From assembly GCA_964019135.1 (NCBI GenBank), contig CAXHSH010001423.1:88650-152649 (forward strand): a stretch of DNA of 64,000 bases, read 5' to 3'. Each line of letters begins with the position of its first letter. Position 1 is the first letter of the stretch. Origin of the DNA: Arenicola marina. Taxonomy: Eukaryota; Annelida; Polychaeta; Arenicolidae. Below the pieces are notes generated by a model, which worked only from the letters and a program-made list of their open reading frames with translations, did no database searches and was not told the origin of the DNA. The translations under genes were made by a program, and so were the position numbers. Positions 5,623 through 62,256 of this stretch are shown one piece after another.

Positions 5623-5722
5623 CTGGGTGCTGTGTTACCATGTTGGCCGGAGGGCCCGTTGTGTAAACGGGACAGGTAGACGTAGCTATAGACTATGTGG
5701 ACCACGCTGTAGCGGACGGTGG
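5623..5722 (-). CDS. ZNHIT2: ZNHIT2-like exon D, VRY...YSY...RLHNG segment
   Basis: The acceptor GGCCCCCTCAG ends at 5723 and a near-perfect donor (CCCAG|GTAAGACC) starts at 5622. The 100 bases enter in phase 1 and leave in phase 2. They read TVRYSVVHIVYSYVYL, then SRLHNG, then PSGQHGNTAP. The pattern V-R-[FY]-x(4)-N/H-[VI]-x-[FY]-x-Y-x(3)-x-x-L-[YH]-[NH]-G is the conserved core helix region of ZNHIT2 after the PWW segment. The plus-strand open frame 5627-5812 over the same bases is its antisense shadow. The next exon should begin by supplying one base. The DNA to the left is entirely the 49-bp array, so it must lie outside the window. Confidence 0.65.
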
Positions 5723-8598
5723 CTGAGGGGGCCTTGGAATGGAAGGGCAAGCACCCTGGCTCACACATTCTCTTCTAATCTTCAAAGAAACAATATAATT
5801 AAAATATGTTGACTACAGATCAGACAATTGACGAGATAAGCAGTAGACGAAGCCAAATCACGACAAAAATGTACCATAGCGTATAACTTTTTAGGCTATA
5901 GTTTTCACCGGTAATCCCAGGGGCATATTGTGGTAACATGGTTGCATAAAGCCATTCGGGCCATGAGCCAAATGGCACTATGACAGGTGAATTAATACCT
6001 GTTCAGTTCAGTGCAGAATAAAAAAATCAGTTTTAGAAATATTGTTTCCCCAGTTTTCCATGGTCGCTATTGTCCATGTATCTGGTTTGAGAGCACTGAC
6101 CTCTTGCCGGCTGTTAGAGCATTGGCCACCTGTCGGCTGTGAATTAATACCTGTTCAGTTCAGTGCAGAATAAAAAAATCAGTTTTAGAAATATTTTTTC
6201 CCCAGTTTTCCATGGTCGCTATTGTCCATGTATCTGGTTTGAGAGCACTGACCTCTTGTCGGCTGTTAGAGCATTGACCACCTGTCGGCTGTGAGAGTAC
6301 TGACCACTTGCTGCTGTGAGAGCACTTACCACTTGTCTGCTGTGAGAGCACTGATCACTTGCTGCCGTGAGAGCACTGACCACTTGTCTGCTGTGAGAGC
6401 ACTGACCACGTGTCTGCTGTGAGAGCACTGACCACTTGCATGTACTCCGCATGTTCTCCGCGGCACGCAGTTAGAGTTCAGTTCTATTGACTGGCTTGGG
6501 AGAACAAACAACTCACGCAGAGCTGCTTGTAATTCGGAATATCTTGCATGACAGCGGGGGAGGTGTCGACCGGCCCTATTCCTGACTCGAAGCGTTATCT
6601 TTATTCTCTTTTACAAGTCTCTTATTCTGTGACAGACAAATTAAATCGCGCCTGAATTATGGTTGATAATACTCATGTTTAATCTTCAATTACGCATCAC
6701 TCCGTATTGCTTTTAATTCCCCGTATTATCTGGACTGAAATGGCATTACTCTATACATAAATAAGTAGGCATCGAGATTGCGTCCCCCGTAGGGTGAGAA
6801 TGACGTAAAATGTCAAATCCGGATTATGTCTTCGGCCCACTACAATGACCTTGACCTTAACAATTGACTGTGACTTTATTTGTGACATATTTGGCCCCTC
6901 AGATCCAGATCTGACACCTTAGATCCACATTGACCCCTCAGATCTATATTTGATACCTCATATCCATATTGACCCTTCAGATCCTGCAGCTCTAAAACTG
7001 TCGCTATAGTGAGCATCCTCTCAATTGTTGGTCCCATCCCAAAAGTAAAAGTCACTCTTTAGTTTCGCCCCCGGGCTCAACGATCTCGCTCGGTGGACAG
7101 CTAAAACCAAACTGCCCGTTTTTTTAGTTTCGGTCTACATTTCTGGTTTCTACATCACTACCATGCGCATTTGCATAGCAACCAACTGAATCATCCCACC
7201 ACCCTAGCTTCAACCACCCCTCCCCCGCCCCGCCCCCCACAACAGTATGCCTACACTGACACCACGGTACCGCTCGCGACAGTGAAGATAATCGCTGTAA
7301 TGTTGTTATGATAAGTAAGATTAGCGAGTCGCGCTGTGTTGACATCTCGATAAGCCAAGCGACGAGTCTCCGGCGACACATCATGGATGTCGACCAGCTG
7401 TTTTTAACAGTTAATAACTCTCGTAGGGTCCTATGTTAAAGTTTAGCATTTTTTTAGCAGACAAACTACTTAGGTCATTTGCAAAATTCAAAGACGTGAC
7501 ACAAGTTACCTACGGGCTCAATACGTGAAATAATGTACAGCGTCATTAAATGAAACTGTGAACGTTATTAATAGCGACTTTCCCGATTTTTGGTCCTATC
7601 TATCAATGGTTAAAGAAGAAACAAAAAAATCCTGTGTCCTTGACCTTTGACCTACATACTCCGCTGACGAACTTGACGAGCCATGTCGGATATCGATGGG
7701 TAAAGTTACAGATTGAAATGTTGCGTTTTGCGACCTACAGAGCGCGTACACACACACACACAGACAGACGAACAAATTGATAGATGCCGTAAAATCTTTA
7801 TTATAAACCACAAATCACGGACACACTAAAGAATTTGTACACTTGCGCAAAGGTTGGACCTTCAGTAAGAGAGGATGACATCATAGCTAGCATCGTGTCT
7901 CAGTACCTTCCACCAAGGCTGCCACGAATCCACCATATTGCCAAGGCGACCATTCCCCGGCATCGTTTCAAACTGCTTCTTGTCCTTCCTCCACAGGATG
8001 TCGGTGTCGCCATCTGACGGGAGAACGGAACGGCCATCGGCATTTGTAGTACATAAAGTGATAAAATGAGATACATGTGGAACGGATTTGTAAACTTTGC
8101 CCCAGTGTGTGGTTTTCTTTAAGGAATGACCCATACACCACGATGTCTTCCTGGAAGCAATGGCTAGTCATTTCGCAGAGAATAAATGTTTATTGTGGGC
8201 GCCGGTGGGCAGTGAATGTTTGCCGATGCGCACTAAAAGGTGTGAATTGCCATGAAAGCCTTTCTCTTTCATTATCCTTGCTTTTTTCCCTCGGCGGGTG
8301 CAGAGCATGTTTTGAGCTTTCCATCGGTCGATGAAACATCCATGGTCAAAACAAAACGCCGAGTGCAGAGTAACGGCCATACATGGTGCTTCTCGAATAA
8401 CTACAAACAGCAACGCTGATAAACCGGACTCCTGTCTAGCTGTCTGAATGGACCCCTCAACACGCCGTCCCGCGAACGCCCTCAAATTCTATATTGTTTT
8501 ACAAGAACAGAAATGATCAAAGGCTATAGCATTGCATGCTAAGGTCGACTTACCAAGATCAAGTCCCTCGAGTCGCGCAGACAGATCAGGAGAGTCAT
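5623..8598 (-). CDS. ZNHIT2: Partial ZNHIT2-like gene, four internal exons
   Basis: Gene-level entry. Reading the minus strand, the exons are 8598-8554, 8013-7907, 7294-7261 and 5722-5623, separated by introns of 540, 612 and 1,538 bp. Phases chain without conflict: 1-1, 1-0, 0-1, 1-2. The joined product shows, in order, DSPDLSARLEGLDL, then D-GDTDILWRK, GNGRLGNMVDSWQPWWK, RLSSLSRAVPW, and VRYSVVHIVYSYVYL followed by SRLHNG. In ZNHIT2 a D-L-x-x-R-L acidic motif, an LW...F..G..W.PWW segment, an SLSR segment and a V-R-F/Y...Y-A-Y...L-Y/H-N-G segment occur in this order after the N-terminal HIT zinc finger. The spacing from SLSR to VR (six residues) equals what I recall for the human protein. 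ZNHIT2 is an RUVBL1/2 (R2TP) partner in U5 snRNP assembly. The zinc-finger and C-terminal exons are not visible here. The gene could be intact with giant introns, or a remnant. Confidence 0.65.
5988..6291. repeat. 152-bp tandem duplication
   Basis: The segment starting TGAATTAATACCTGTTCAG at 5988 is repeated from 6140 with an exact offset of 152 bases. Copies 5988-6139 and 6140-6291 differ at a few sites, for example ATTGTTTCC versus ATTTTTTCC. Each copy ends with two 26-bp minisatellite units, so the duplication probably arose by unequal exchange at the edge of that minisatellite. Confidence 0.9.
6241..6439. repeat. 26-bp minisatellite, about 8 units
   Basis: Tandem units built on GAGAGCACTGACCACTTG followed by TCTGCTGT; some units are one or two bases short. 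The first two units (CTCTTGTCGG and CACCTGTCGG variants) are also part of the 152-bp duplication, where they recur at 6090-6140. Confidence 0.85.
6891..6986. repeat. About 19-bp degenerate tandem repeat, 5 units
   Basis: Five imperfect units of TGACCCCTCAGATCCATAT type, starting near 6891, 6911, 6930, 6949 and 6969. No coding signal. Confidence 0.75.
7261..7294 (-). CDS. ZNHIT2: ZNHIT2-like exon C (34-bp microexon)
   Basis: The acceptor ATAACAACATTACAG ends at 7295 and the donor GTCAGTGT starts at 7260. The 34 bases read RLSSLSRAVPW in phase 0 and leave one T that joins CC of the next exon (Ser). SLSR followed six residues later by VR matches the ZNHIT2 core spacing. The exon is very short and was chosen because it is the only stretch found between exons B and D whose phases (0 in, 1 out) and residues both fit. 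It lies inside a longer minus-strand open frame (7124-7384) whose remainder looks non-coding. A further in-phase exon between B and C is possible. Confidence 0.55.
7641..7653 (-). promoter_or_regulatory. Perfect DR1-type nuclear receptor element
   Basis: The minus strand reads AGGTCAAAGGTCA, two AGGTCA half-sites one base apart, followed by a third partial half-site (AGGACA). DR1 is the classic HNF4/RXR-type target. It sits inside an intron. Such motifs also occur by chance and in repeats, so function is unproven. Confidence 0.3.
7748..7762. repeat. Short (AC)n microsatellite
   Basis: A run of AC dinucleotides followed by CAGACAGACG. It lies in the intron between exons B and C. Confidence 0.9.
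7797..7802 (-). terminator. Minus-strand AATAAA polyadenylation signal
   Basis: AATAAA on the minus strand lies 60 bases beyond the TGA at 7862-7864 that ends the read-through form of exon B. It could serve an intronic polyadenylation event giving a truncated protein ending ...VILSY. A lone hexamer in AT-rich DNA is weak evidence, but its placement just after an in-frame stop of a real exon is notable. Confidence 0.4.
7907..8013 (-). CDS. ZNHIT2: ZNHIT2-like exon B, LW...WQPWW segment
   Basis: The acceptor GTTCCGTTCTCCCGTCAG ends at 8014. The exon opens with AT, completing a GAT (Asp) codon from exon A, and then reads 35 codons: GDTDILWRKDKKQFETM, PGNGRLGNMVDSW and QPWWK. The W-x-P-W-W ending preceded by a G-x-L/A-G stretch is the most recognisable part of ZNHIT2. 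The donor used here (AAG|GTACTGAG at 7906) is only fair. If it is skipped, the frame runs 14 codons further (VLRHDASYDVILSY) to a TGA at 7862-7864, giving a terminal exon. From LW to the F is about four residues shorter than in the human protein as I remember it, a possible in-frame deletion. Confidence 0.65.
8014..8553 (-). other. Intron between exons A and B
   Basis: 540 bp with a good donor (GTAAGT) and acceptor (CCCGTCAG). Open frames inside it (8168-8485 minus, 8077-8334 plus) have no recognisable domain and no splice or phase support, so I treat them as chance. Confidence 0.5.
8554..8598 (-). CDS. ZNHIT2: ZNHIT2-like exon A (45-bp microexon)
   Basis: On the minus strand a textbook acceptor (TTTTTTATTTCCAG) ends at 8599 and a strong donor (GTAAGTCG) starts at 8553. 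The 45 bases between them enter and leave in phase 1. They read (N)AT then DSPDLSARLEGLDL, with the last G completed by the next exon to give D. The acidic DSPDL plus R-L-x-G-L-D-L is the ZNHIT2 motif just before its LW...PWW segment. Other frames hit an early stop or read MTLLICLRDSRDLIL, which matches nothing I know. The exon is 276 bp from the edge of the 36-bp array, so that array lies in its upstream intron. Confidence 0.7.
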
Positions 8599-8874
8599 CT
8601 GGAAATAAAAAATTATCAACTAACACAAGTAAACGACTGCTGCATAAATTTACAGAAGATATACGAAGGGTTTTTCATTCCACAATATAATAGATCCTAA
8701 TGGTGCCAATATTTAGATTCGTTTTATTATGTCATTTTTTTGGTTTTTGTTGTTTGTATTTGCAACATTTTTGTGCAATAAATGTTAAAAACAAAATGAC
8801 TCATTTGCCAAATTTACACTTCATGTCACCACGAAACAAGAAATGAGATCAAGAATAGTAATATCAGATTCCAT
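8599..8874 (-). other. Intron start between exon A and the 36-bp array
   Basis: 276 bp of AT-rich unique DNA containing the exon A acceptor at its left end and T-rich stretches (8704-8775). No gene or RNA feature seen. The join to the array is abrupt, with no inverted repeats or target-site duplication that I can see. Confidence 0.5.
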
Positions 8875-11800
8875 GCCTGTGGCACCGCCTGTCCCAATGG
8901 CAACCGCAGGGACTTTGGCACCACCGGTCCCAATGCCAACCGCAGGGACTTTGGCACCGCCTGTCCCAATGCCAACCGTAGGGTCTGTGGCATCGCCGGT
9001 CCCAATGCCACCCACAGGGACTGTGGCACCACCGGTCCCAATGCCAACCGCAGGGACTGTGGTACCGCCGGTCCCAATACCAACCGCAGGGCCTGTGGCA
9101 TCGCCGGTCCCAATGCCAACCGCAGTGCCTGTGGCACCGCCTGTCCAAATGCCAACCGCAGGGACTGTGGCATCGCCGGTCCCAATGCCAACCGCTGGGC
9201 CTGTGGCATCGCCGGCCCCAATGCCAACCGCAGGGCCTGTGGCATCGCCGATCCCAATGCCAACCGAAGGGCCTGTTGCACCGCCGGTCCCAATGCCAAA
9301 CGCAGGGCCTGTGGCACCGCCTGTCCCAATGCCAAATGCAGGGCCTGTGGCACCGCCGGTCCCAATGCCAAACGCAGGGCCTGTGGCATCGCCGGTCCCA
9401 ATACCAACCGCAGGGCCTGTGGCATCGCCGGTCCCAATGCCAACCGCAGTGCCTGTGGCACCGCCTGTCCAAATGCCAACCGCAGGGACTGTGGCATCGC
9501 CGGTCCCAATGCCAACCGCAGGGCCTGTGGCACCGCCGGTCCCAATGCCAACCGCAGGGCCTGTGGCATCGCCGGTCCCAATGCCAACCACAGGGCCTGT
9601 CGCACCGCCTGTCCCAATGCCAACCGCAGGGACTGTGGTACCGCCGGTCCCAATACCAACCGCTGGGCCTGTGGCATCGCCGGTCCCAACGCCAACCGCA
9701 GGGCCTGTGGCACCGCCTGTCCGAATGCCAACCGCAGGGACTGTGGCATCGCCGGTCCGAATGCCAACCGCAGGGCCTGTAACACCGCCGGTAGCAATTC
9801 CAACCGCAGGGCCTGTGACACCGCCGGTCCCTATGCCAACCGCAGGGCCTGTGGCATCGCCGGTCCCAATGCCAACCGCAGGGCTTGTGGCATCGCCGGT
9901 CCCAATGCCAACCGCAGGGCCTGTGGCACCGCGGGGCCGAATGTCACCCGCAGGGACTGTCGTACCGCCGGTCCCAATACCAACCGCAGGGCCCGTGGCA
10001 TCGCCGGTCCCAATACCAACCGGAGGGCCTGTGGCATCGCCGGTCCCAATGCCAACCGCAGTGCCTGTGGCACCACCTGTCCAAATGCCAACCGCAGGGA
10101 CTGTGGCATCGCCGGTCCCAATGCCAACCGCTGGGCCTGTGGCATCGCCGGTCCCAATGCCAACCGCAGTGCCTGTGGCACCGCCTGTCAAAATGCCAAC
10201 CGCAGGGACTGTGGTACCGCCGGTCCCAATGCCAACCGCAGGGCCTGTGGCACCGCCGGTCAGAAGGCCAACCGCAGGGCCTGTGGCACCGCCGGTCCCA
10301 ATGCCAACCGCAGGGCCTGTGGCATCGCCGATCCCAATGCCAACCACAGGGCCTGTCGCACCGCCTGTCCCAATGCCAACCGCAGGGACTGTGGTACCGC
10401 CGGTCCCAATACCAACCGCAGGGCCTGTGGCATCGCCGGTCCCAACGCCAACCGCAGGGCCTGTGGCACCGCCTGTCCGAATGCCAACCGCAGGGACTGT
10501 GGCACCGCCGGTCCCAATGCCATCCGCAGGGCCTGTGGCACCGCTGGTCCCAATACCAACCGGAGGGCCTGTGGCATCGCCGGTCCCAATGCCAACCGCA
10601 GTGCCTGTGGCACCACCTGTCCAAATGCCAACCGCAGGGACTGTGGCATCGCCGGTCCCAATGCCAACCGCTGGGCCTGTGGCATCGCCGGTCCCAATGC
10701 CAACCGCAGTGCCTGTGGCACCGCCTGTCCAAATGCCAACCGCAGGGGCTGTGGTACCGCCGGTCCCAATGCCAACCGCAGGGCCTGTGGCACCGCCGGT
10801 CAGAATGCCAACCGCAGGGCCTGTGGCACCGCCGGTCCCAATGCCAACCGCAGGGCCTGTGGCATCGCCGATCCCAATGCCAACCACAGGGCCTGTCGCA
10901 CCGCCTGTCCCAATGCCAACCGCAGGGACTGTGGTACCGCCGGTCCCAATACCAACCGCAGGGCCTGTGGCATCGCCGGTCCCAACGCCAACCGCAGGGC
11001 CTGTGGCACCGCCTGTCCGAATGCCAACCACAGGGACTGTGGCACCGCCGGTCCCAATGCCATCCGCAGGGCCTGTGGCACCGCTGGTCCCAATGCCAAC
11101 CGCAGGGCGTGTGGCATCGGCGTTCCCAATGCCAAACGCAGCCTGTGGCACCGCCGGTCCCAATACCAACCGCAGGGCCTGTGGCATCGCCGGTCCCAAT
11201 GCCAACCGCAGTGCTTGTGGCACCGCCTGTCCGAATGCCAACCGCAGGGCCTGTGGCACCGCCGGTAGCAATTCCAACCGCAGGGCCTGTGACACCGCCG
11301 GTCCCAATGCCAACCGCAGAGCCTGTGGCATCGCCGGTCCCAATGCCAACCGCAGGGCCTGTGACACAGCCGGTCCCAATGCCAACCGCAGGGCCTGTGG
11401 CATCGCCGGTCCCAAAGCCAACTGCAGGGACTTTGGCACCGCCGGTCCCAATGCCAACCGCAGGGCCTGTGGCACCGCCTGTCGAAATACCAACCGCAGG
11501 GCCTGTGGCATCGCCGGTCCCAATGCCAACCACAGGGCCTGTCGCACCGCCTGACCCAATGCCAACCGCCGGGATTGTGGTACCGCCGGTCCCAATACCA
11601 ACCGCAGGGCCTGTGGCATCGCCGGTCCCAACGCCAACCGCAGGGCCTGTGGCACCGCCGGTCCCAAAGCCAACTGCAGGGACTTTGGCACCGCCGGTCC
11701 CAATGCTAACCGCAGGGCCTGTGGCACCGCTGGTCCGAATGCCAACCGTCGGGTCTGTGGCACCGGCGTTCCCACTGCCAACCGCTGGGCCTGTGGCATC

Positions 11801-12693
11801 GCCGGCCCCAATGCCAACCGCAAGGCCTGTGGCATCGCCGATCCCAATGCCAATCGCATGGCCTGTTGCACCGCCTGTCCCAATGCCAACCGTAGAGCCT
11901 GTGGCACCCCTGGTCCCAATGCCAACCACAGGGCCTGTGGCATCGGCGGTCCCAATGCCAACCGCAGGGACTGTGGCACCGCCGGTCCGAATGCCAACCG
12001 CAGGGCCTGTGGCACCGCCGGTAGCAATTCCAACCGCAGGGACTGTGGTACCGCCGGTCCCAATACCAACCGCAGGGCCTGTGGCATCGCCTGTCCCAAT
12101 ACCAACCGCAGGGCCTGTGGCATCGCCGGTCCCAATGCCAAACGCAGTGCCTGTGGCACCGCCGGTCCAAATGTCAACCGCAGGGACTGTGGCATCGCCG
12201 GTCCCAATGCCAACCGCAGGGCCTGTGGCATCGCCAGCCCCAATGCAAACCGCAGGGCCTTTGGCATCGCCGATCCCAATGCCAACCACAGGGCCTGTTG
12301 CACCGCCGGTCCCAATGCCAACCGCAGGGCCTGTTGCACCGCCTGTCCCAATGCCAACTGCAGGGCATGTGGCACCGCCGGTCCCAATGCCAATCACAGG
12401 GCCTGTCGCACCGCCTGTCCCAATCCCAACCGCAGGGACAGTGGTACCGCCGGTCCCAAAACCAACCGCAGGGCCTGTGGCCTCGCCGGTCCCAACGCCA
12501 ACCGCAGGGCCTGTGGCACCGCCTGTCCGAATGCCAACCGCAGGGACTGTGGCACCGCCGGTCCCAATGCCAACCCCAGGGCCTGTGGCACCGCTGGTCC
12601 CAATGCCAACCGCAGGGCGTGTGGCATCGGCGTTCCCAATGCCAACCCCAGGGACTGTGGCACCGCCGGTCCCAATGCCAACCGTAGGGGCCT

Positions 12694-15141
12694 GTGGCAC
12701 CACCGGTCCCAATGCCAACCGCAGGGCCTGTGGCACCGCCGGTCCCAATGCCAACCGGAGGGGCTGTGGCACCGCCTGTCCCAATGCCAACCGTAGGGCC
12801 TGTGGCACCGCTGGTCCCAATGCCAACCACAGGGCCTGTGGCATCGTCGGTCCCAATGCCAACCGCAGGGACTGTGGCACCCCCGGTCCGAATGCCAATC
12901 GCAGGGCCTGTGGCACCGCCGGTAGCAATTCCAACCGCAGGGCCTGTGACACCGCCGGTCCCAATGCCAACCGCAGGGCCTGTGGCATCGCCGGTCCCAA
13001 TGCCAACCGAAAGGCCTGTGACACCGCCGATCCCAATGCCAACCGCAGGGCCTGTGGCATCGCCGGTCCCAAAGCCAACTGCAGGGACTTTGGCACCGCC
13101 GGTCCCAATGCTAACCGCAGGGCCTGTGGCACCGCCTGTCCCAATGCCAACCGTCGGGTCTGTGGCATCTCCGGTCTCAATACCAACCGCTGGGCCTGTG
13201 GCATCGCCGGCCCCAATGCCAACCGCAAGGCCTGTGGCATCGCCGATCCCAATGCCAATCGCATGGCCTGTTGCACCGCCGGTCCCAATGCCAGTCGCAG
13301 GGCCTGTGGCACCGTCTGTCCCAATGCCAACTGCAGGGCCTGTGGCACCGCCGGTCCCAATGCCAAACGCAGGGCCTGTGGCACCACCGGTCCCATACCA
13401 ACCGCAGGGTCTGTGGCATCGCCGGTCGCAATGCCAACCGCAGTGCCTGTGGCACCGCCTGTCCAAATGCCAACCGCAGGGACTGTGGCACCGCCGGTCC
13501 AAATGCCAACCGCAGGGCCTGTGGCACCGCCTGTCCCAATGCCAACCGCAGGGCCTGTGGCACCGCCGCTCCCAATGCCAACCACAGGGCCTGTGGCATC
13601 GCCGGTCCCAATGCCAACCACAGGGCCAGTCGCACCGCCCGTTCTAATGCCAACCGCAGGGACTGTGGTACCGCCGGTCCCAATACCAACCGCAGGGCCT
13701 GTGGCATCGCCGGTCCCAACGCCAACCGCAGGGCCTTTGGCACCGCCTGTCCGAATGCCAACCGCAGGGACTGTGGCACCGCCGGTCCCAATGCCAACCG
13801 CAGGGCCTGTGGCACCGCTGGTCCCAATACTAACCAAAGGGCGTGTGGCATCGGCGTTCCCAATGCCAACCGCAGGGACTGTGGCACCGCCGGTCCCAAT
13901 GCCAACGGTAGGGGCCTATGGCACCACCGGTCCCAATGCCAACCGCAGGGCCTGTGGCACCGCCGGTCCCAATGCCAACCGGAGGGGCTGTGGCACCGCC
14001 TGTCCCAATGCCAACCGTAGGGCCTGTGGCACCGCTGGTCCCAATGCCGACCACAGGGCCTGTGGCATCGTCGGTCCCAATGCCAACCGCAGGGACTGTG
14101 GCACCCCCGGTCCGAATGCCAATCGCAGGGCCTGTGGCACCGCCGGTAGCAATTCCAACCGCAGGGCCTGTGACACCGCCGGTCCCAATGCCAACCGCAG
14201 GGCCTGTGGCATCGCCGGTCCCAATGCCAACCGAAAGGCCTGTGACACCGCCGATCCCAATGCCAACCGCAGGGCCTGTGGCATCGCCGGTCCCAAAGCC
14301 AACTGCAGGGACTTTGGCACCGCCGGTCCCAATGCTAACCGCAGGGCCTGTGGCACCGCCTGTCCCAATGCCAACCGTCGGGTCTGTGGCATCTCCGGTC
14401 TCAATACCAACCGCTGGGCCTGTGGCATCGCCGGCCCCAATGCCAACCGCAAGGCCTGTGGCATCGCCGATCCCAATGCCAATCGCATGGCCTGTTGCAC
14501 CGCCGGTCCCAATGCCAGTCGCAGGGCCTGTGGCACCGTCTGTCCCAATGCCAACTGCAGGGCCTGTGGCACCGCCGGTCCCAATGCCAAACGCAGGGCC
14601 TGTGGCACCACCGGTCCCATACCAACCGCAGGGTCTGTGGCATCGCCGGTCGCAATGCCAACCGCAGTGCCTGTGGCACCGCCTGTCCAAATGCCAACCG
14701 CAGGGACTGTGGCACCGCCGGTCCAAATGCCAACCGCAGGGCCTGTGGCACCGCCTGTCCCAATGCCAACCGCAGGGCCTGTGGCACCGCCGCTCCCAAT
14801 GCCAACCACAGGGCCTGTGGCATCGCCGGTCCCAATGCCAACCACAGGGCCAGTCGCACCGCCCGTTCTAATGCCAACCGCAGGGACTGTGGTACCGCCG
14901 GTCCCAATACCAACCGCAGGGCCTGTGGCATCGCCGGTCCCAACGCCAACCGCAGGGCCTTTGGCACCGCCTGTCCGAATGCCAACCGCAGGGACTGTGG
15001 CACCGCCGGTCCCAATGCCAACCGCAGGGCCTGTGGCACCGCTGGTCCCAATACTAACCAAAGGGCGTGTGGCATCGGCGTTCCCAATGCCAACCGCAGG
15101 GACTGTGGCACCGCCGGTCCCAATGCCAACGGTAGGGGCCT
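12694..15141. repeat. 1,224-bp tandem higher-order repeat, two copies
   Basis: Blocks 12694-13917 and 13918-15141 (34 monomers each) are almost identical, with an exact offset of 1,224 bases. They share the marker unit CCGTAGGGGCC or CGGTAGGGGCC, the GTCCCATACCAACC one-base deletion (13393 and 14617) and the GGTAGCAATTCC units. A third block start at 15142 keeps the same spacing before diverging. Confidence 0.85.
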
Positions 15142-17120
15142 ATGGCACCACCGGTCCCAATGCCAACCGCAGGGCCTGTGGCACCGCCGGTCCCAATGCC
15201 AACCGGAGGGGCTGTGGCACCGCCTGTCCCAATGCCAACCGTAGGGCCTGTGGCACCGCTGGTCACAATGCCAACCACAGGGCCTGTGGCATCGGCGGTC
15301 CCAATGCCAACCGCAGGGACTGTGGCACCGCCGGTCCGAATGCCAACCGCAGGGCCTGTGGCACCGCCGATAGCAATTCCAAACGCAGGGCCTGTGACAC
15401 CGCCGGTCCCAATGTCAACCGCAGGGCCTGTGGCATCGCCGGTCCCAATGCCAACCGCAGGGCCTGTGACACCGCCGGTCCCAATGCCAACCGCAGGGCC
15501 TGTGGCATCGCCGGTCCCAAAGCCAACTGCAGGGCCTGTGGCACCGCCTGTCCCAACACCAACCGCCGGGTCTGTGGCATCGCCGGTCCCAATGCCAAAC
15601 GCAGGGACTGTGGCACCGCCGATCCCAATGCCAACCGCAGGGCCTGTGGCACCGCCGGTCCCAATGCCAACGTCAGGGCCTGTGGCACCGCCGGTCCGAA
15701 TGCCAACCACAAGGCCTGTGGCACCGCCGGTCCCAATTCTAAACACAGGGCCTGTGACACCGCCGGTCCCAATGCCAACCGCAGGGCTTGTGGCATCGCC
15801 GGTCCCAAAGCCAACCGCAGGGCCTGTGGCACCGCCGGTCCCAATGCCAACCGCAGGGCCTGTGGCACCGCCTGTCCCAATGCCAACCGCAGGGTCTGTG
15901 GCATCGCCGGTCCCAATGCGAACCGCACGGACTGTGGCACCGCCGGTCCCAATGCCAACCGCAGGGCATGTTACATCGCCGGTCCCAATGCCAACCGCAG
16001 GGCCTGTGGCCCCGCCGGTCCCAATGCCAAACGCAGGGCCTGTGGCACCGCCGGTCCCAATGCCAACCGCAGGGCATGTGCCATCGTCGGTCCCAATGGC
16101 AAATGCAAGGACTGTGGCACCGCCGGTCCCAATACCAACCGCAGGGCGTGTGGCATCGGCGTTCCCAATGCCAACCGCAGGGACTGTAGCTCCGCCGGTC
16201 CCAATGCCAACCGTAGGGGCCTATGGCACCACCGGTCCCAATGCCAACCGCAGGGCCTGTGGCACCGCCGGTCCCAATGCCAACCGGAGGGGCTGTGGCA
16301 CCGCCTGTCCCAATGCCAACCGTAGGGCCTGTGGCACCGCTGGTCCCAATGCCATCCACAGGGCCTGTGGCATCGGCGGTCCCAATGCCAACCGCAGGGA
16401 CTGTGGCACCGCCGGTCCGAATGCCAACCGCAGGGCCTGTGGCCCCGCCGGTAGCAATTCCAACCGCAGGGCCTGTGGCACCGCCTGCCCAATGCCAACC
16501 GCAGGAACTGTGGCACCGCCGGCCCCAATGCCAACCGCAGGGCCTGTGGCACCGCCGGTCCCAATGCCAACCGCAGGGCCTGTGGCATCGGCGGTCCCAA
16601 TGCCAACCGCAGGGCCTGTCGCATCGCCGGTCCCAATGCCAACCGCAGCGCCTGTGACACCACCGGTCCCAATGCCAACCGCAGGGCTTGTGGCATCGCC
16701 GGCCCCAAAGCCAACCGCAGGGCCTGTGGCACCGCCTGTCCCAATGCCAACCGCAGGGCCTGCGGCCCCGCCGGTCCCAATGCAAATCACAGGGCCTGTC
16801 GCACCGCCTGTCCGAATGCCAACCGCAGGGACTGTGGCACCGCCGGTCCCAATGCCAACCCCAGGGCCTGTGGCACCGCTGGTCCCAATGCCAACCGCAG
16901 GGTGTGTGGCATCGGCGTTCCCAATGCCAACCGCAGGGATTGTGGCACCGCCGGTCCCAATGCCAACCGTAGGGGCCTGTGGCACCACCGGTCCCAATGC
17001 CAACCGCAGGGCCTGTGGCACCGCCGGTCCCAATGCCAACCGGAGGGGCTGTGGCACCGCCTGTCCCAATGCCAACCGTAGGGCCTGTGTCACCGCTGGT
17101 CCCAATGCCAACCACAGGGC

Positions 17121-41400: not shown

Positions 41401-42419
41401 ACCGCCTGTCCCAATGCCAACCGTAGGGCCTGTGGCACCGCTGGTCCCAATGCCATCCACAGGGCCTGTGGCATCGGCGGTCCCAATGCCAACCGCAGGG
41501 CCTGTGGCCCCGCCGGTACCAAATGCCAAATTCAGGGCTTGTGGCACCGCCTGTCCCAATGCCAACCGCAGGGCCTGTGGCCCCGCCGGTCCCAATGCCA
41601 ATCACAGGGCCTGTCGCACCGTCTGTCCCAATGCCAACCGCAGGGACAGTGGTACCGCCGGTCCCAAAACCAACCGCAGAGCCTGTGGCCTCGCCGGTCC
41701 CAACGCCAACCGCAGGGCCTGTGGCACCGCCTGTCCGAATGCCAACCGCAGAGACTGTGGCACCGCCGGTCCCAATGCCAACCCCAGGGCCTGTGGCACC
41801 GCTGGTCCCAATGCCAACCGCAGGGCGTGTGACATCGGCGTTCCCAATGCCAACCGCAGGGACTGTGGCACCGCCGGTCCCAATGCCAACCGTAGAGGCC
41901 TGTGGCACCACCGGTCCCAATGCCAACCGCAGGGCCTGTCTCGCCGCCGGGCCCAATGCCAACCGGAGGGGCTGTGGCACCGCCTGTCCCAATGCCAACC
42001 GTAGGGCCTGTGGCACCGCTGGTCCCAATGCCAACCACAGGGCCTGTGGCATCGTCGGTCCCAATGCCAACCGCAGGGACTGTGGCACCGCCGGTCCGAA
42101 TGCCAACCGCAGGGCCTGTGGCACCGCCAGTAGCAATTCCAACCGCAGGGCCTGTGACACCGCCGGTCCCAATGCCAACCGCAGGGCCTGTGGCATCGCA
42201 GGTCCCAATGCCAACCGCAAGGCCTGTGACACCGCCGGTCCCAATGCCAACCGCAGGGCCTGTGGCATCGCCGGTCCCAAAGCCAACTGCAGGGACTTTG
42301 GCACCGCCGGTCCCAATGCCAACGGCAGGGCCTGTGGCATCGCCGGTCCCAATGCCAACCGCTGGGCCTGTGGTATCGCCGGCCCCAATGCCAACCGCAA
42401 GGCCTGTGGCATCGCCGAT

Positions 42420-45400: not shown

Positions 45401-46020
45401 CATCGCCGATCCCAATGCCAACCGCAGGGCCTGTTGCACCGCCGGTCCCAATGCCAACCGCAGGGCCTGTGGCACCGTCTGTCCCAATGCCAACTGCAGG
45501 GCCTGTGGCACCGCCGGTCCCAATGCCAACCGCAGGGCATGTGGCATCGCCGGTCCCAATGGCAACCGCAGGGACTGTGGCACCGCCGGTCCCAATACCA
45601 ACCGCAGGGCCTGTGGCACCGCTTGTCCCAATGCCAACAGCAGGGCCTGTGGCACCGCCTGTCCTAATGCCAACCGCAGAGCCTGTGGCATCGCCGGTCC
45701 CAACGCCAACAGCAGGGCCTGTGGCACCGCCTGTCGGAATGCCAACCGTAGGGACTGTGGCACCCCCGGTCCCAATGCCAACCGCAGGGCCTGGGGCACC
45801 GCTGGTCCCAATGCCAACCGCAGAGCGTGTGGCATCGGCGTTCCCAATGCCAACCGCAGGGACTGTGGCACCGCCGGTCCCAATGCCAACCGTAGGGGCC
45901 TATGGCACCACCGGTCCCAATGCCAACCGCAGGGCCTGTGGCACCGCCTGTCCCAATGCCAACCGGAGGGGCTGTGGCACCGCCTGTCCCAATGCCAACC
46001 GTAGGGCCTGTGGCACCGCT
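42420..46020. repeat. About 1.95-kb tandem higher-order repeat
   Basis: Segments starting near 42420 and 44366 match with an offset of 1,946 bases (54 units plus 2 bases), including the AAACTCAGGGCTTG unit and the GGTCACAAAGCC unit. The first copy ends near 44060-44365, where unrelated variants appear. Confidence 0.75.
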
Positions 46021-52000: not shown

Positions 52001-53710
52001 CGGTCTCAATGCCAAACGCATTGCCTGTGGCACCGCCTGTCCAAATGCCAACCGCAGGGACTGTGGCACCGCCGGTCCCAATACCAACCGCAGGGCCTGT
52101 GGCACCGCTGGTCCCAATGCCAACCGCAGGGCCTGTGGCACCGCCTGCCCTAATGCCAACCGCAGGGCCTGTGGCATCGCCGCTCCCAATGCCAACCGCA
52201 GGGCCTGTGGCACCGCCGGTCCCAATGCCAACCGCCGGTCTCAATGCCAACCCGCAGGGCCTGTGGCACCGCCAGTCCCAATGCCAACCGCAGGGCCTGT
52301 GGCATCGGCGGTCCCAATGCCAACCGTAGGGCCTGTCGCACCGCCGGTCCCAATTCCAACCGCAGGGCCTTTGGCACCGCCGGTCCCAATTCCAACCGCA
52401 GGGCCTGTCGCACCGCCGGTCCCAATTCCAACCTCAGGGCCTGTGGCACCGCCGGTCCCAATGCCAATCGCAGGGCCTGTGACATCGCCTGTCCCAATGT
52501 CAACCGCAGGGACTGTGGCGTCGCCGGTCCCAATGCCAACCGCAGGGCCTGTGGCACCGCCGGTCCCAGTGCCAACCGCAAGGCCTTTGGCATCGCCGGT
52601 CCCAATGCCAACCGCGGGGCCTGTGGCATCGCCGGTCCCAATGCCAACCGCAGGGACTGTGGCATCGCCGGTCCCAAGCCAACCGCAGGCCTTGTGACAC
52701 CGCCGGTCCCAATGCCAACCGGAGGGCCTGTGGCACCGCCTGTCCTAATGCCAACCGCAGTCTCTGTGGCACCGCCGCCCCCAATGCCAACCGCAGGGCC
52801 TGTGACACCGCCTGCCCCAATGCCAACCGCAGGGACTGTGGCACCGCCTGCCCTAATGCCAACCGCAGGGCCTGTGGCATCGCCGCCCCCAATGCCAACC
52901 GCAGGGCCTGTGGCACCGCCGGTCCCAATGTCAACGACATTGCCTGTGGCACCGCCTGTCCCAATGCCAACCGCATGGCCTGTGGCATCGCTGGTCCCAA
53001 TGCCAACTGCAGGGCCTGTGGCACCGCCGGTCCCAATTCCAACCACAGCGCCTGTGACACCGCCGGGCCCAATGCCAACCGCTGGGACTGTGGCACCGCC
53101 GGTCCCGATACCAACCGCAGGGCCTGTGGCATCGCCGGTCTCAATGCCAACCGCAGGGCCTGTGGCACCGCCTGTCCTAATGCCAACCGCCGGTCCCAAT
53201 GCCAACCCGCAGGGCCTTTGGCACCGCCAGTCCCAATGCCAACCGCAGGGCCTGTGGCATCGGCGGTCCCAATGCCAACCGCAGGGCCTGTCGCACCGCC
53301 GGTCCCAATTCCAACCGCAGGGCCTTTGGCACCGCCGGTCCCAATTCCAACCGCAGGGCCGGTCGCACCGCCGGTCCCAATTCCAACCGCAGGGCCTGTG
53401 GCACCGCCGGTCCCAATGCCAATCGCAGGGCCTGTGACATCGCCCGTCCCAATGTCAACCGCAGGGACTGTGGCGTCGCCGGTCCCAATGCCAATCGCAG
53501 GTCCTGTGGCACCGCCGGTCCCAATGCCAATCGCAGGGCCTGTGACATCGCCTGTCCCAATGTCAACCGCAGGGACTGTGGCGTCGCCGGTCCCAATGCC
53601 AACCGCAGGGCCTGTGGCACCGCCGGTCCCAGTGCCAACCGCAAGGCCTTTGGCATCGCCGGTCCCAATGCCAACCGCGGGGCCTGTGGCATCGCCGGTC
53701 CCAATGCCAA
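44700..53710. repeat. 4.5-kb tandem duplication inside the array
   Basis: 44700-49204 is repeated directly at 49205-53710. The offset is 4,505 bases at both ends and 4,613 in the middle, so three units were gained and later lost relative to each other. Both copies carry the same rare frame-breaking forms: CCCAATCCAACCGCAGGCCC (46494 and 51107), GTCCCAAGCCAACC (48058 and 52671) and AACCCGCAGG (47635 and 52248). Confidence 0.85.
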
Positions 53711-54120
53711 CCGCAGGGACTGTGGCATCGCCGGTCCCAAGCCAACCGCAGGCCTTGTGACACCGCCGGTCCCAATGCCAACCGCAGGGCCTGTGGCATC
53801 GCCGGTCCCAAAGCCAACCGCAAGGACTTTGGCACCGTCGGTCCCAATGCCAACCGCAGGGCCTGTGGCACCGCCTGTCCCAATGCCAACCGCAGGGTCT
53901 GTGGCATCGCCGGGCCCAATGCCAACCGCAGGTTATGTGGCACCGCTGGTCCCAATGCCAACCGCAGGGCCTGTGGCACCGCTGGTCCCAATGCCAACCC
54001 GCAGGGCCTGTGGCATCGGCGGTCCCAATGCCAACCGCAGGGCCTGTCGCACCGCCGGTCCGAATGCCAACCACAGGGCCGGTGGCACCGCCGGTCCCAA
54101 TTCCAACCGCAGGGCCTGTG

Positions 54121-55776
54121 GCACCGCCGGTCCCAATGCCAACCGCAGGGCCTGTGACACCGCCTGTCCCAATGCCAACCGCAGGGTCTGTGGCATGGCC
54201 GGTCCCAATGCCAACCGCAGGGACTGTGGCACCGCCGGTCCCAATGCCAACCGCAAGGCCTGTGGCACCGCCGGTCCCAATGCCAACCGCAGGGTCTGTG
54301 GCATCGCCGGTCCCAATGCCAACCGGAGGGCCTGTGGCACCGCCTGTCCCGATGCCAACCGCAGGGCCTGTGGCCCCGCCGGTCCCAATGCCAACCGCAG
54401 GGCCTGTGGCACCGCCGGTCCCAATGCCAACCGGAGGGCATGTGGCATCGCCGGTCCCAATGGCAACCGCAGGGACTGTGGCACCGCTGGTCCCAATACC
54501 AACCGCAGGGCCTGTGGCACCGCTTGTCCCAATGCCAACAGCAGGGCCTGTGGCACCGCCTGTCCTAATGCCAACCGCAGGGCCTGTGGCATCGCCGCCC
54601 CCAATGCCAACCGCAGGGCCTGTGACACCGCCTGGCCCAATGCCAACCGCAGGGACTGTGGCACCGCCGGTCCCAATGCCAACCGTAGGGCCTGTGACAC
54701 CGCCTGTCCCAATGCCAACCGCAGGGTCTGTGGCATGGCCGGTCCCAATGCCAACCGCAGGGACTGTGGCACCGCCGGTCCCAATGCCAACCGCAGGGCC
54801 TGTGGCACCGCCGGTCCCAATGCCAACCGCAGGGTCTGTGGCATCGCCGGTCCCAATGCCAACCGGAGGGCCTGTGGCACCGCCTGTCCCGATGCCAACC
54901 GCAGGGCCTGTGGCCCCGCCGGTCCCAATGCCAACCGCAGGGCCTGTGGCACCGCCGGTCCCAATGCCAACCGGAGGGCATGTGGCATCGCCGGTCCCAA
55001 TGGCAACCGCAGGGACTGTGGCACCGCTGGTCCCAATACCAACCGCAGGGCCTGTGGCACCGCTTGTCCCAATGCCAACAGCAGGGCCTGTGGCACCGCC
55101 TGTCCTAATGCCAACCGCAGGGCCTGTGGCATCGCCGCCCCCAATGCCAACCGCAGGGCCTGTGACACCGCCTGGCCCAATGCCAACCGCAGGGACTGTG
55201 GCACCGCCGGTCCCAATGCCAACCGTAGGGCCTGTGACACCGCCTGTCCCAATGCCAACCGCAGGGTCTGTGGCATGGCCGGTCCCAATGCCAACCGCAG
55301 GGACTGTGGCACCGCCGGTCCCAATGCCAACCGCAGGGACTGTGGCACCGCCGGTCCCAATGCCAACCGCAGGGTCTGTGGCATCGCCGGTCCCAATGCC
55401 AACCGGAGGGCCTGTGGCACCGCCTGTCCCAATGCCAACCGCAGGGCCTGTGGCCCCGCCGGTCCCAATGCCAACCGCAGGGCCTGTGGCACCGCCTGTC
55501 CCAATGCCAACCGCAGGGCCTGTGGCCCCGCCGGTCCCAATGCCAACCGGAGGGCATGTGGCATCGCCGGTCCCAATGGCAACCGCAGGGACTGTGGCAC
55601 CGCCGGTCCCAATACCAACCGCAGGGCCTGTGGCACCGCTTGTCCCAATGCCAACAGCAGGGCCTGTGGCACCGCCTGTCCTAATGCCAAAAGCAGGGCC
55701 TGTGGCATTGCCGCCCCCAATGCCAACCGCAGGGCCTGTGACACCGCCTGCCCCAATGCCAACCGCAGGGACTGTG
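54121..55776. repeat. 540-bp higher-order repeat, three copies
   Basis: Fifteen-monomer blocks start at 54121, 54661 and 55201, each with the rare GTGGCATGGCC unit (54190, 54730, 55270) and the ATGGCAACCGCAGG unit. The third block is 576 bp, having gained one monomer. Confidence 0.85.
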
Positions 55777-55849
55777 GCATTGCCGCCCCCAATGCCAACC
55801 GCAGGGCCTGTGACACCGCCTGCCCCAATGCCAACCGCAGGGCCTGTGG

Positions 55850-57220
55850 CATCGCCGCCCCCAATGCCAACCGCAGGGCCTGTGGCACCGGCGGTCCCAA
55901 TGCCAACCGTAGGGCCTGTGGCACCGCCGGTAGCAATTCCAACCGCAGGGCCTGTGACACCGCCGGTCCCAATGCCAACCGCAGGGCCTGTCGCACCGCC
56001 GGTCCGAATGCCAACCACAAGGCCTGTGGCGCCGCCGGTCCCAATTCCAACCACAAGGCCTGTGGCACCGCCTGTCCCAATGCCAACCGCAGGGTCTGTG
56101 GCATCGCCGGTCCCAATGCCAACCGCAGGGACTGTGGCACCGCCGGTCCCAAGGCCAACCGCAGGGCCTGTGGCACCGCCTGTCCCAATGCCAACCACAG
56201 GGCCTGTGGCATCGCCGGTCCCAATGCCAACCGGAGGGCCTGTGGCACCGCCGGTCCCAATGCCAACCGCAGGGCCTGTGGCCCCGCCGGTCCCAATGCC
56301 AACCGCACGGCCTGTGGCACCGCCTGTCCCAATGCCAACCGCAGGGCCTGTGGCCCCGCCGGTCCCAATGCCAAACGCAGGGCCTGTGGCACCGCCGGTC
56401 CCAATGCCAACCGCAGGGCATGTGGCATCGCCGGTCCCAATGGCAACCGCAGGGACTGTGGCACCGCCGGTCCCAATACCAACCGCAGGGCCTGTGGCAC
56501 CGCTTGTCCCAATGCCAACAGCAGGGCCTGTGGCACCGCCTGTCCTAATGCCAACCGCAGGGCCTGTGGCATCGCCGCCCCCAATGCCAACCGCAGGGCC
56601 TGTGGCACCGGCGGTCCCAATGCCAACCGTAGGGCCTGTGGCACCGCCGGTAGCAATTCCAACCGCAGGGCCTGTGACACCGCCGGTCCCAATGCCAATC
56701 GCAGGGCCTGTCGCACCGCCGGTCCGAATGCCAACCACAAGGCCTGTGGCGCCGCCGGTCCCAATTCCAACCACAAGGCCTGTGGCACCGCCTGTCCCAA
56801 TGCCAACCGCAGGGTCTGTGGCATCGCCGGTCCCAATGCCAACCGCAGGGACTGTGGCACCGCCGGTCCCAAGGCCAACCGCAGGGCCTGTGGCACCGCC
56901 TGTCCCAATGCCAACCACAGGGCCTGTGGCATGGCCGGTCCCAATGCCAACCGGAGGGCCTGTGGCACCGCCGGTCCCAATGCCAACCGCAGGGCCTGTG
57001 GCCCCGCCGGTCCCAATGCCAACCGCAGGGCCTGTGGCACCGCCTGCCCCAATGCCAACCGCAGGGACTGTGGCACCGCCGGTCCTAATGCCAACCGCCG
57101 GGCCTGTGGCATCGCCGCCCTCAATGCCAACCGCAGGGCCTGTGGCACCGCCGGTCCAAATGTCAACGACAGGGCCTGTGGCACCGCCTGTCCCAATGAC
57201 AACCGCATGGCCTGTGGCAT
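55850..57220. repeat. 720-bp higher-order repeat, two copies
   Basis: The block beginning near 55850 (CACCGGCGGTCCC, then GGTAGCAATTCC, then GGCGCCGCCGG) recurs from about 56570 with an offset of 720 bases, 20 monomers. Confidence 0.75.
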
Positions 57221-60200
57221 CGCTGGTCCCAATGGCAACTGGCGGGCCTGTTGCACCGCTTGTCCCAATGCCAACCGCAGGGCCTGTGGCACCGCCGGTC
57301 CCAGTGCCAACCGCATGGCCTGTGGCATCGCTGGTCCCAATGCCAACTGCAGGGCTTGTTGCACCGCCGGTCCCAATGCCAACCGCAGGGCCTGTGGCAC
57401 CGCCGGTCCCAATGCCAACCGGAGGGCCTGTGGCACCGACTCTCCCAATGCCAACCGCAGGGCCTGTGGCCCCGCCGGTCCCAATGCCAAACGCAGGGCC
57501 TGTGGCACCGCCGGTCCGAATGCCAACCGCAGGGCATGTGGCATCGGCGGTCCCAATGCCAACCGCAGGGCCTGTCGCACCGCCGGTCCGAATACCAACC
57601 ACAGGGCCTGTGGCACCGCCGGTCCGAATTCCAACCACAGGGCCTGTGACACCGCCGGTCCCAATGCCAACCGCAGGGCCTGTGGCATCGCCGGTCCCAA
57701 TGCCAACCGCAGGGCGTTTGACACCACCGATCCCAATGCCAACCGCAGGGCCTGTGGCACCGCCGGTCCCAATGCCAACCGGAGGGGCAGTGGCACCGCC
57801 GGTCCCAATGCCAACCGTAGGGCCTGTGGCACCGCTGGTCCCAATGCCAACCACAGGGCCTGTGGCATCGTCGGACCCAATGCCAACCGCAGGGACTGTG
57901 GCATCGCCGGTCCCAATGCCAACCGCAGGGCCTGTGGCATCGCCGGTCCCAAAGCCGACTGCAGGGACTTTGGCACCGCCGGTCCCAATGCCAACCGCAG
58001 GGCCTGTGGCACCGCCTGTCCCAATGCCAACCGCCGGGTCTTTGGCATCGCCGGTCCCAATGCCAACCGCTGGGCCTGTGGCATCGCCGGCCCCAATGCC
58101 AACCGCAAGGCCTGTCGCATCGCCGGTCCCAATGCCAACCGCAGGGCCTGTGGCATCGCCGGTCCCAAAGCCAACTGCAGGGACTTTGGCACCGCCGGTC
58201 CCAATGCCAACCGCAGGGCCTGTGGCACCGCCTGTCTTAATGCCAACCGCAGGGACTGTGGCACCGCCTGTCCTAATGCCAACCGCAGGGCCTGTGGCAC
58301 CGCCTGTCCCAATGCCAACCGCAGGGCCTGTGACACCACCGGTCCCAATGCCAACCACAGGGCCTGTGGCATCGCCGGTCCCAAAGCCAACCGCAGGGCC
58401 TGTGGCACCGCCGGTCCGAATGCCAACCACAAGGCCTGTGGCGCCGCCGGTCCCAATTCCAACCACAGGGCCTGTGGCACCGCCTGTCCCAATGCCAACC
58501 GCAGGGTCTGTGGCATCGCCGGTCCCAATGCCAACCGCAGGGACTGTGGCACCGCCGGTCCCAATGCCAACCGCAGGGCCTGTGGCACCGCCTGTCCCAA
58601 TGCCAACCGCAGGGCCTGTGGCATCGCCGGTCCCAATGCCAACCGGAGGGCCTGTGGCACCGCCTGTCCCAATGCCAACCGCAGGGCCTGTGGCCCCGCC
58701 GGTCCCAATGCCAACCGCAGGGCCTGTGGCACCGCCTGTCCCAATGCCAACCGCAGGGCCTGTGGCCCCGCCGGTCCCAATGCCAAACGCAGGGCCTGTG
58801 GCACCGCCGGTCCCAATGCCAACCGCAGGGCATGTGGCATCGCCGGTCCCAATGGCAACCGCAGGGACTGTGGCACCGCCGGTCCCAATACCAACCGCAG
58901 GGCCTGTGGCACCGCTTGTCCCAATGCCAACAGCAGGGCCTGTGGCACCGCCTGTCCTAATGCCAACCGCAGGGCCTGTGGCATCGCCGCCCCCAATGCC
59001 AACGGCAGGGCCTGTGACACCGCCTGCCCCAATGCCAACCGCAGGGACTGTGGCACCGCCTGTCCTAATGCCAACCGTGGGGCCTGTGGCATCGCCGCCC
59101 CCAATGCCAACCGCAGGGCCTGTGGCACCGCCGGTCCCAATGTCAACGACAGGGCCTGTGGCACCGCCTGTCCCAATGACAACCGCATGGCCTGTGGCAT
59201 CGCTGGTCCCAATGGCAACTGGAGGGACTGTTGCACCGCCTGTCCTAATGCCAACCGCAGGGCCTGTGGCATGGCCGCCCCCAATGCCAACGGCATGGCC
59301 TGTGACACCGCCTGCCCCAATGCCAACCGCAGGGACTGTGGCACCGCCGGTCCTAATGCCAACCGCAGGGCCTGTGGCATCGCTGCCCTCAATGCCAACC
59401 GCAGGGCCTGTGGCACCGCCGGTCCCAATGTCAACGACAGGGCCTGTGGCACCGCCTGTCCCAATGACAACCGCATGGCCTGTGGCGTCGCTGGTCCCAA
59501 TGGCAACTGGCGGGCCTGTTGCACCGCCTGTCCCAATGCCAACCGCAGGGCCTGTGGCACCGCCGGTCCCAGTGCCAACCGCATGGCCTGCGGCATCGCT
59601 GGTCCCAATGCCAACTGCAGGGCTTGTTGCACCGCCGGTCCCAATGCCAACCGCAGGGCCTGTGGCACCGCCGGTCCCAATGCCAACCAGAGGGTCTGTG
59701 GCACCGACTCTCCCAATGCCAACCGCAGGGCCTGTGGCCCCGCCGGTCCCAATGCCAAACGCAGGGCCTGTGGCACCGCCTGTCCCAATGCCAACCGCAG
59801 GGCCTGTGGCCCCGCCGGTCCCAATGCCAACCGCAGGGCCTGTGGCACCGCCTGTCCCAATGCCAACCGCAGGGCCTGTGGCCCCGCCGGTCCCAATGCC
59901 AAACGCAGGGCCTGTGGCACCGCCGGTCCCAATGCCAACCGCAGGGCATGTGGCATCGCCGGTCCCAATGGCAACCGCAGGGACTGTGGCACCGCCGGTC
60001 CCAATACCAACCGCAGGGCCTGTGGCACCGCTTGTCCCAATGCCAACAGCAGGGCCTGTGGCACCGCCTGTCCTAATGCCAACCGCAGGGCCTGTGGCAT
60101 CGCCGCCCCCAATGCCAACGGCAGGGCCTGTGACACCGCCTGCCCCAATGCCAACCGCAGGGACTGTGGCACCGCCTGTCCTAATGCCAACCGTAGGGCC

Positions 60201-61060
60201 TGTGGCATCGCCGCCCCCAATGCCAACCGCAGGGCCTGTGGCACCGCCGGTCCCAATGTCAACGACAGGGCCTGTGGCACCGCCTGTCCCAATGACAACC
60301 GCATGGCCTGTGGCATCGCTGGTCCCAATGGCAACTGGAGGGCCTGTTGCACCGCCTGTCCTAATGCCAACCGCAGGGCCTGTGGCATGGCCGCCCCCAA
60401 TGCCAACGGCATGGCCTGTGACACCGCCTGCCCCAATGCCAACCGCAGGGACTGTGGCACCGCCGGTCCTAATGCCAACCGCAGGGCCTGTGGCATCGCT
60501 GCCCTCAATGCCAACCGCAAGGCCTGTGGCACCGCCGGTCCCAATGTCAACGACAGGGCCTGTGGCACCGCCTGTCCCAATGACAACCGCATGGCCTGTG
60601 GCATCGCTGGTCCCAATGGCAACTGGCGGGCCTGTTGCACCGCCTGTCCCAATGCCAACCGCAGGGCCTGTGGCACCGCCGGTCCCAGTGCCAACCGCAT
60701 GGCCTGCGGCATCGCTGGTCCCAATGCCAACTGCAGGGCTTGTTGCACCGCCGGTCCCAATGCCAACCGCAGGGCCTGTGGCACCGCCGGTCCCAATGCC
60801 AACCGGAGGGCCTGTGGCACCGACTCTCCCAATGCCAACCGCAGGGCCTGTGGCCCCGCCGGTCCCAATGCCAAACGCAGGGCCTGTGGTACCGCCGGTC
60901 CCAATGCCAACCGCAGGGCATGTGGCATCGGCGGTTCCAATGCCAACCGCAGGGCCTGTCGCACCGCCGGTCCGAATACCAACCACAGGGCCTGTGGCAC
61001 CGCCGGTCCGAATTCCAACCACAGGGCCTGTGACACCGCCGGTCCCAATGCCAACCGCAG
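57060..61060. repeat. Higher-order repeat with 2,268- and 1,116-bp periods
   Basis: The marker monomers GTCAACGACAGG, AATGACAACCGCATGG and GGCAACTGGCGG occur together at about 57160-57250, 59420-59520 and 60540-60640. Offsets are 2,268 and 1,116 bases (63 and 31 monomers). A related partial set lies at 59130-59230 and 60250-60345. Confidence 0.75.
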
Positions 61061-62256
61061 GGCCTGTGGCATCGCCGGTCCCAATGCCAACCGCAGGGCG
61101 TTTGACACCACCGATCCCAATGCCAACCGCAGGGCCTGTGGCACCGCCGGTCCCAATGCCAACCGGAGGGGCAGTGGCACCGCCTGTCCCAATGCCAACC
61201 GTAGGGCCTGTGGCACCGCCGGTCCCAATGCCAACCGCAGGGCCTGTGGCACCGCCTGTCCCAATGCCAACCGCCTGGTCTTTGGCATCGCCGGTCCCAA
61301 TGCCAACCGCTGGGCCTGTGGCATCGCCGGCCCCAATGCCAACCGCAAGGCCTGTCGCATCGCCGATCCCAATGCCAACCGCAGGGCCTGTGGCATCGCC
61401 GGTCCCAAAGCCAACTGCAGGGACTTTGGCACCGCCGGTCCCAATGCCAACCGCAGGGCCTGTGGCACCGCCTGTCTTAATGCCAACCGCAGGGACTGTG
61501 GCACCGCCTGTCCTAATGCCAACCGCAGGGCCTGTGGCACCGCCTGTCCAAATGCTAACCGCTTGGCCTGTGGCATCGCTGGTCCCAATGCCAACTGCAG
61601 GGCCTGTTGCACCGCCGGTCCCAATGCCAACCGCAGGGTCTGTGGCACCGCCGGTCCCAATGCCAACCGGAGGGCCAGTGGCACCGACTGTCCCAATGCC
61701 AACCGCAGGGCCTGTGGCCCCGCCGGTCCCAATGCCAAACGCAGGGCCTGTGGCACCGCCGATCCCAATGCCAACCGCCGGGCCTGTGGCATCGCCGGTC
61801 CCAATGCCAACCGCAGGGCCTGTGACACCACCGGTCCCAATGCCAACCACAGGGCCTGTGGCATCGCCGGTCCCAAAGCCAACCGCAGGGCCTGTGACAC
61901 CGCCTGTCCCAATGCCAACCGCAGGGCCTGTGGCACCGCTGGGCCTGTGGCAACGCCGGTCCCAATGCCAACAGCAGGGCCTGTGGCACCGCCTGTCCCA
62001 ATGCCAACCGCATGGACTGTGGCACCGCCGGTCCCAATGCCAACCGCAGCGCATGTGGCACCGCCGGTCCCAATGCCAACCGCATGGACTGTGGCACCGC
62101 CGGTCCCAATGTCAACGGCAGGGCTATGGCTCCGCCGGTCCCAATGCCAACCGCATGGACTGTGGCACCGCCGGTCCCGGTCCTGGTCGCCACCAAGCCA
62201 GAAGTTTGTATGCAGCGGTAAATGATCTGTAAAGGATGTAACCAACGTAACGTGAA

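Follow-up and report, generated by a model that had tools for sequence, protein, structure and literature searches.

A lesion-bearing ZNHIT2 fragment hemmed by minisatellite arrays on an unplaced contig of Arenicola marina

Introduction

ZNHIT2 is described, in an excerpt of PMC5460035, as a zf-HIT protein that binds RUVBL2 and is linked to U5 snRNP assembly, the zf-HIT motif having the form CCCC-CCHC. The locus reported here, a window of 64,000 nucleotides from the lugworm Arenicola marina (C760:88650-152649; assembly of 867 Mb in 762 contigs), resembles this gene in that it holds exons 4-7 alignable, with identical intron positions, to a complete ZNHIT2 elsewhere in the assembly, and differs from it in that its contig carries neither the HIT finger nor any N- or C-terminal exon and in that the copy bears four lesions. 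Its affinity is closer to unprocessed (duplicated) pseudogenes, with which it shares the presence of introns, its partial extent, a broken reading frame and exons that diverge like alignable intron; unlike these, the window copy and a sister fragment at C3:42.897 Mb are hemmed by tandem arrays on both sides. The larger of the neighbouring arrays in the window is akin to minisatellites and satellites with large internal duplications, its 36-bp units lying head-to-tail with identity declining with distance and with kilobase-scale exact internal repeats, but differs in that its unit was found at a single locus, in an array of 53 kb. A search of titles and abstract openings found no paper on the locus. 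We conclude that the window very probably holds an old unprocessed pseudogene fragment (exons 4-7) of ZNHIT2 on an unplaced contig composed mostly of tandem repeat.

Results

A complete ZNHIT2 on C3. A genome search with the peptide of the joined window exons was used to locate ZNHIT2 copies. The complete gene lies at C3:39.29 Mb (within C3:39,288,000-39,297,999, hereafter L035) and comprises ten exons and nine GT-AG introns, the exon borders being those that we chose without transcript support; its frame is intact over 376 codons from ATG to stop. Its HIT finger exceeds the Pfam cut-off (PF04438, 32.1 bits vs 24.7), and an approximate 326-residue version of the protein found as its first PDB match 1x4s ('Zinc finger HIT domain containing protein 2', E 4.6e-7), with HIT1, Box C/D snoRNA protein 1 and ZNHIT3 ranking behind it. 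Alignment to this gene bears out the ZNHIT2 identity that the first-pass annotation had given to four minus-strand exons of the window; the same annotation had allowed that a complete gene elsewhere, together with a lack of transcripts from the window, would make them a remnant, and the first half of this is borne out at C3:39.29 Mb. We note that intron 7 of the complete gene harbors a 53-bp minisatellite (L035:6922-7233 and 7849-8421) whose unit takes in the acceptor of exon 8 together with that exon's first codons; the gene thereby contains its own intron-exon border many times over.

The fragment in the window. All four exon remnants lie on the minus strand and were delimited by alignment to the complete gene. 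Exon 4 (8554-8598) and exon 5 (7907-8013) retain both AG and GT, the latter with an in-frame deletion of 12 bp; exon 6 (6517-6626) contains a TAG in frame as well as a 1-bp deletion, and exon 7 (5623-5738) has lost its acceptor (AG to AT) and likewise has a 1-bp deletion. About 87% of ungapped sites in the four exons are identical to the complete gene. The homology expected of the middle part of ZNHIT2 is therefore present, exons 4-7 being alignable, and the open frame and correct splicing expected of a functional copy are absent on account of the four disabling lesions in exons 6 and 7. Of the earlier description of four GT-AG exons in consistent phase, what stands is that three of the four keep AG and GT at their homology-defined borders; the AT of exon 7, the TAG of exon 6 and the two 1-bp deletions do not fit it. 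None of six open reading frames of the window exceeded the Pfam threshold (the single match below it being FeeM, E 0.086), peptides of the window found no match in the PDB, and no Rfam family was detected in the window at gathering scores.

The fragment also retains parts of introns 4-6 and, next to the arrays, short pieces of introns 3 and 7. The end of intron 3 (8604-8740, minus strand, 80% identical to the complete gene) is part of a dispersed repeat that is present at the same place in the complete gene. Since the remnants of introns 3 and 7 end beside the arrays, the arrays do lie where introns once lay, as had been proposed. Former intron 5 received an insertion of about 1 kb (6773-7796), identified by genome search as a dispersed repeat found at more than 30 other places among the matches listed (85-93% identity; 40 of 3530 candidates scored) and absent from the complete ZNHIT2; when the whole 3.3-kb piece was used as a genome query, only copies of this inserted repeat appeared among the 40 of 3530 candidates scored. 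Former intron 6 contains two copies, 98% alike, of a 152-bp tandem duplication (5987-6294) overlapped by eight copies of a 26-bp repeat (6233-6438); at the corresponding place the complete gene has 2.6 copies of a 26-bp repeat.

A contig of tandem arrays. Both minisatellites reported on either side of the fragment are real by TRF, with tandem units of 49 and 36 bp: the 49-bp array occupies 1-5574 of the window (114 copies) and C760:86811-94223 at its full extent (152 copies, 7.4 kb), and the 36-bp array occupies 8875-62178. From left to right, contig C760 (152,649 bp) consists of a 139-bp array of about 21 kb, a 42-bp array of 1.8 kb, an 18-bp array, the 49-bp array, the 3.3-kb ZNHIT2-like piece, the 36-bp array of 53 kb, an AAT-rich array (62258-62834 of the window) on its far side and a 34-bp array. 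The 18-bp array, to the left of the window, measures 50.7 kb (C760:36146-86810) and directly adjoins the 49-bp array. Together, the tandem arrays amount to about 135 of the 152.6 kb. Such arrays are not rare in this genome: TRF found one in 4 of 17 stretches of 401 bp taken at round-number chromosome positions.

A sister fragment and the placement of the contig. A second, shorter fragment at C3:42,896,883-42,897,230 consists of exons 4 and 5, most of intron 4 being gone, and has GC for GT as its exon 5 donor. It is 95% identical to the window fragment over 75 bases and 90% over 271, shares with it the in-frame 12-bp deletion of exon 5, and like it is free of an insertion of about 260 bp found beside exon 5 in the complete gene. 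It runs into the 49-bp repeat in the same orientation as in the window. In the assembly, a pattern search for the 49-bp unit gave 56 matches in forward orientation, confined to C760, and 714 in reverse orientation, those listed being all on C3; all eight samples taken at C3:42.905-42.940 Mb are 49-bp array. On its other flank the sister fragment has, instead of the 36-bp array, a 21-bp array and 200 N. Because the sister fragment borders the 49-bp repeat, a single joint duplication of fragment and repeat is probable, and the two fragments are probably one old partial duplicate that already bore this repeat. In the region around the sister fragment (C3:42.875-42.980 Mb), a 49-bp array spans at least 43 kb, and there are additional minisatellites with units of 28, 65 and 27 bp.

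The shared orientation into the 49-bp repeat and the shared 12-bp deletion would also be expected if C760 were the unmerged other haplotype of C3:42.9 Mb, a reading that would leave the pseudogene interpretation unchanged. We consider it rather unlikely: the two fragments are just 90-95% identical, on the side away from the 49-bp repeat they adjoin different arrays (21-bp on C3, 36-bp on C760), and 12 samples from around the C3 array and eight from inside it match C760 solely in the 49-bp repeat. Moreover, a non-array part of 6.6 kb (C760:23400-30000) matches C6:14.99 and C7:27.13 Mb at 98-99%, and not C3. Given that no ZNHIT2 exon is among the matches listed at these C6 and C7 positions, C760 stays unplaced; the right flank of the contig, to which only dispersed pieces of at most 288 bases match, gives no placement either. 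Part of C760:23400-30000 recurs on many chromosomes, and also near dispersed ZNHIT2 copies at C2:51.85, C5:19.68 and C7:37.28 Mb.

Divergence of exons and introns. Window and complete gene differ at 49 of 378 exon sites (13.0%) and at 125 of 926 sites of alignable intron (13.5%; Fisher p = 0.86), the intron value being taken from nine blastn-aligned stretches with unaligned parts left out, so that the true one may be higher. Over 321 readable bases dN is 0.10 and dS 0.20, a ratio of 0.51, which is compatible with, but not decisive for, one constrained and one free lineage, since by itself it could also reflect weak constraint on both. The copy thus combines what characterizes an unprocessed pseudogene: retained introns (parts of introns 3-7 align) with an intact parent in the genome, and disabling lesions with no constraint on the exons. 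The same lack of constraint relative to alignable intron makes it quite improbable that the fragment is transcribed as a functional non-coding or truncated RNA.

The missing exons. The first-pass annotation had placed the missing ends of the gene across the arrays, and thereby proposed either that ZNHIT2 carries an intron exceeding 53 kb or that the arrays have broken it. The right end of the window is the end of the contig, which stops 1.8 kb past the 36-bp array, and a tblastn search of C760 with nine of the ten exon peptides of the complete gene (exon 6 left out) found exons 4, 5 and 7 and nothing above noise for exons 1-3 and 8-10, so that neither the zinc-finger nor the C-terminal exons sought in the flanking contig turned up. 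The best match at noise level, to exon 10 (26 residues, 38%, E 0.010, C760:29151-29228), is on the other strand, 65 kb away from the fragment, and is taken as chance. A zf-HIT profile found no match on C760, whose sequence thus lacks the CCCC-CCHC finger of a functional ZNHIT2. With all 60 candidates scored and E up to 0.001, the profile found four places in the assembly. Two are the ZNHIT2 copies at C3:39.29 and C5:19.65 Mb (40 of 82 candidates scored); the other two, on C11 and C19, have no ZNHIT2 exon among the nearby matches listed. The assembly thus offers no further finger exon that could belong to the window copy. Exons 1-3 of this copy could lie beyond the contig end, in unassembled sequence.

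A working ZNHIT2 with minisatellite introns of more than 53 kb and more than 5 kb would agree with the intact frame and splice sites of exons 4 and 5, with the location of the arrays at intron positions and with a contig that ends so soon after the 36-bp array that its far side is unreadable. We rule it out as extremely improbable because of the lesions (a stop, two 1-bp deletions and a lost acceptor), the exon conservation that is no higher than that of alignable intron and the absence of the missing exons from the contig; the complete gene at C3:39.29 Mb further speaks against it. As to breakage by the arrays, the copy is indeed broken, but its lesions lie within or beside exons and the exons it lacks are not on the contig.

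The 36-bp array. The roughly 1480 copies of the 36-bp unit comprise a core (8875-61939, 1473 copies) and a tail to 62178 (7 copies). The unit was found on C760 alone: a 41-base pattern, allowing up to three mismatches, gave 993 matches both in the whole assembly and in the window. Ungapped identity is 84% between adjacent units and drops to 50% across 36 units; of the 80-mers, 68% are present at least twice, and the longest exact repeat measures 2,864 bp at a spacing of 5,761; TRF together with repeat and pattern counts thus reveals kilobase-scale internal duplications. We give next to no credence to the idea that the array encodes a repetitive protein, one frame of which reads PVAPPVPMPTAG, since, for all that 36 is a multiple of 3, the unit is stop-poor and stop-free runs reach 3,203 codons, the longest runs fall in the same final 9 kb, where they occupy both strands and several frames, and internal duplications are spaced by distances not divisible by 3 (5,761 and 4,613, for example), which rules out one reading frame.

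Dispersed copies of the 3' part. Besides the complete gene, the window and C3:42.897 Mb, the ZNHIT2 3' part occurs at 15 further places, mostly 95-99.8% alike and, where examined, adjoined by a virus-like element; 12 of them have exon 5 and three exon 7 only, a count that leaves out six further matches at E 0.39 and above. Eleven of the 12 exon 5 copies share mutual identities of 95.0-99.8% over about 3 kb, introns included, and the twelfth, on C1, is 88-89% alike. Counted among the 15 is a second ZNHIT2 copy at C5:19.649-19.673 Mb, whose intron 4 is interrupted by about 23.6 kb (C5:19,649,386-19,672,968) with inverted ends (about 580 bp, 90% identity) and flanked by a 6-bp target duplication. 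At C2:52.760-52.783 Mb the 3' part likewise stands beside the element; the copy at C2:52.78 Mb has one stop in exon 5 and one in exon 7, and its ZNHIT2 homology begins abruptly in intron 4 (about position 9182 of this locus, L037), at the very place of the C5 insertion point. The window copy has an empty site there.

Element sequence from C2:52.78 Mb (L037:1-2196) was also found at 14 places with no ZNHIT2 exon listed nearby, and in 11 of them homology at the right end breaks off at L037:9176-9180 (23 of 1458 candidates scored), which indicates that the element ends there. Its reading frames contain C2H2 fingers over the family cut-off and an ATPase below it (ATPase_2 E 7e-4, Pox_A32 E 0.1); it may also have a family-B polymerase motif and may resemble Polinton/Maverick elements. 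On C9 and at C2:51.9 Mb, another piece of the ZNHIT2 tail reappears on the same strand at a distance of about 44 kb.

Discussion

The order of events that we infer begins with duplication at the DNA level of part of ZNHIT2 together with its introns, after which function would have been lost and the duplicate of exons 4-7 would have decayed as an unprocessed pseudogene. Tandem repeats would have grown beside the leftovers of introns 3 and 7. Following the probable joint duplication of fragment and 49-bp repeat, the arrays on C3 and C760 would have grown apart, and the 36-bp array may have expanded via kilobase-scale duplications within itself, presumably through unequal exchange or replication slippage.

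Tentatively, and with rather low confidence, we suggest a broader scenario in which ZNHIT2 was repeatedly copied: an old wave would have moved the fragment and the 49-bp repeat as a unit (C3, C760), and an independent, younger wave would have spread the 3' part of the element-interrupted second copy, on a large repeat beside the virus-like element, to 15 places. If this is true, minisatellite-borne gene fragments would be a recurrent mobile form and not a single accident. The locus also illustrates that a convincing chain of exons beside a giant array can be a dead copy, for which a search for the parent gene in the same genome offers a quick test. For the genome of Arenicola marina, it documents a 53-kb minisatellite found at a single locus and the repeated copying of fragments of one gene.
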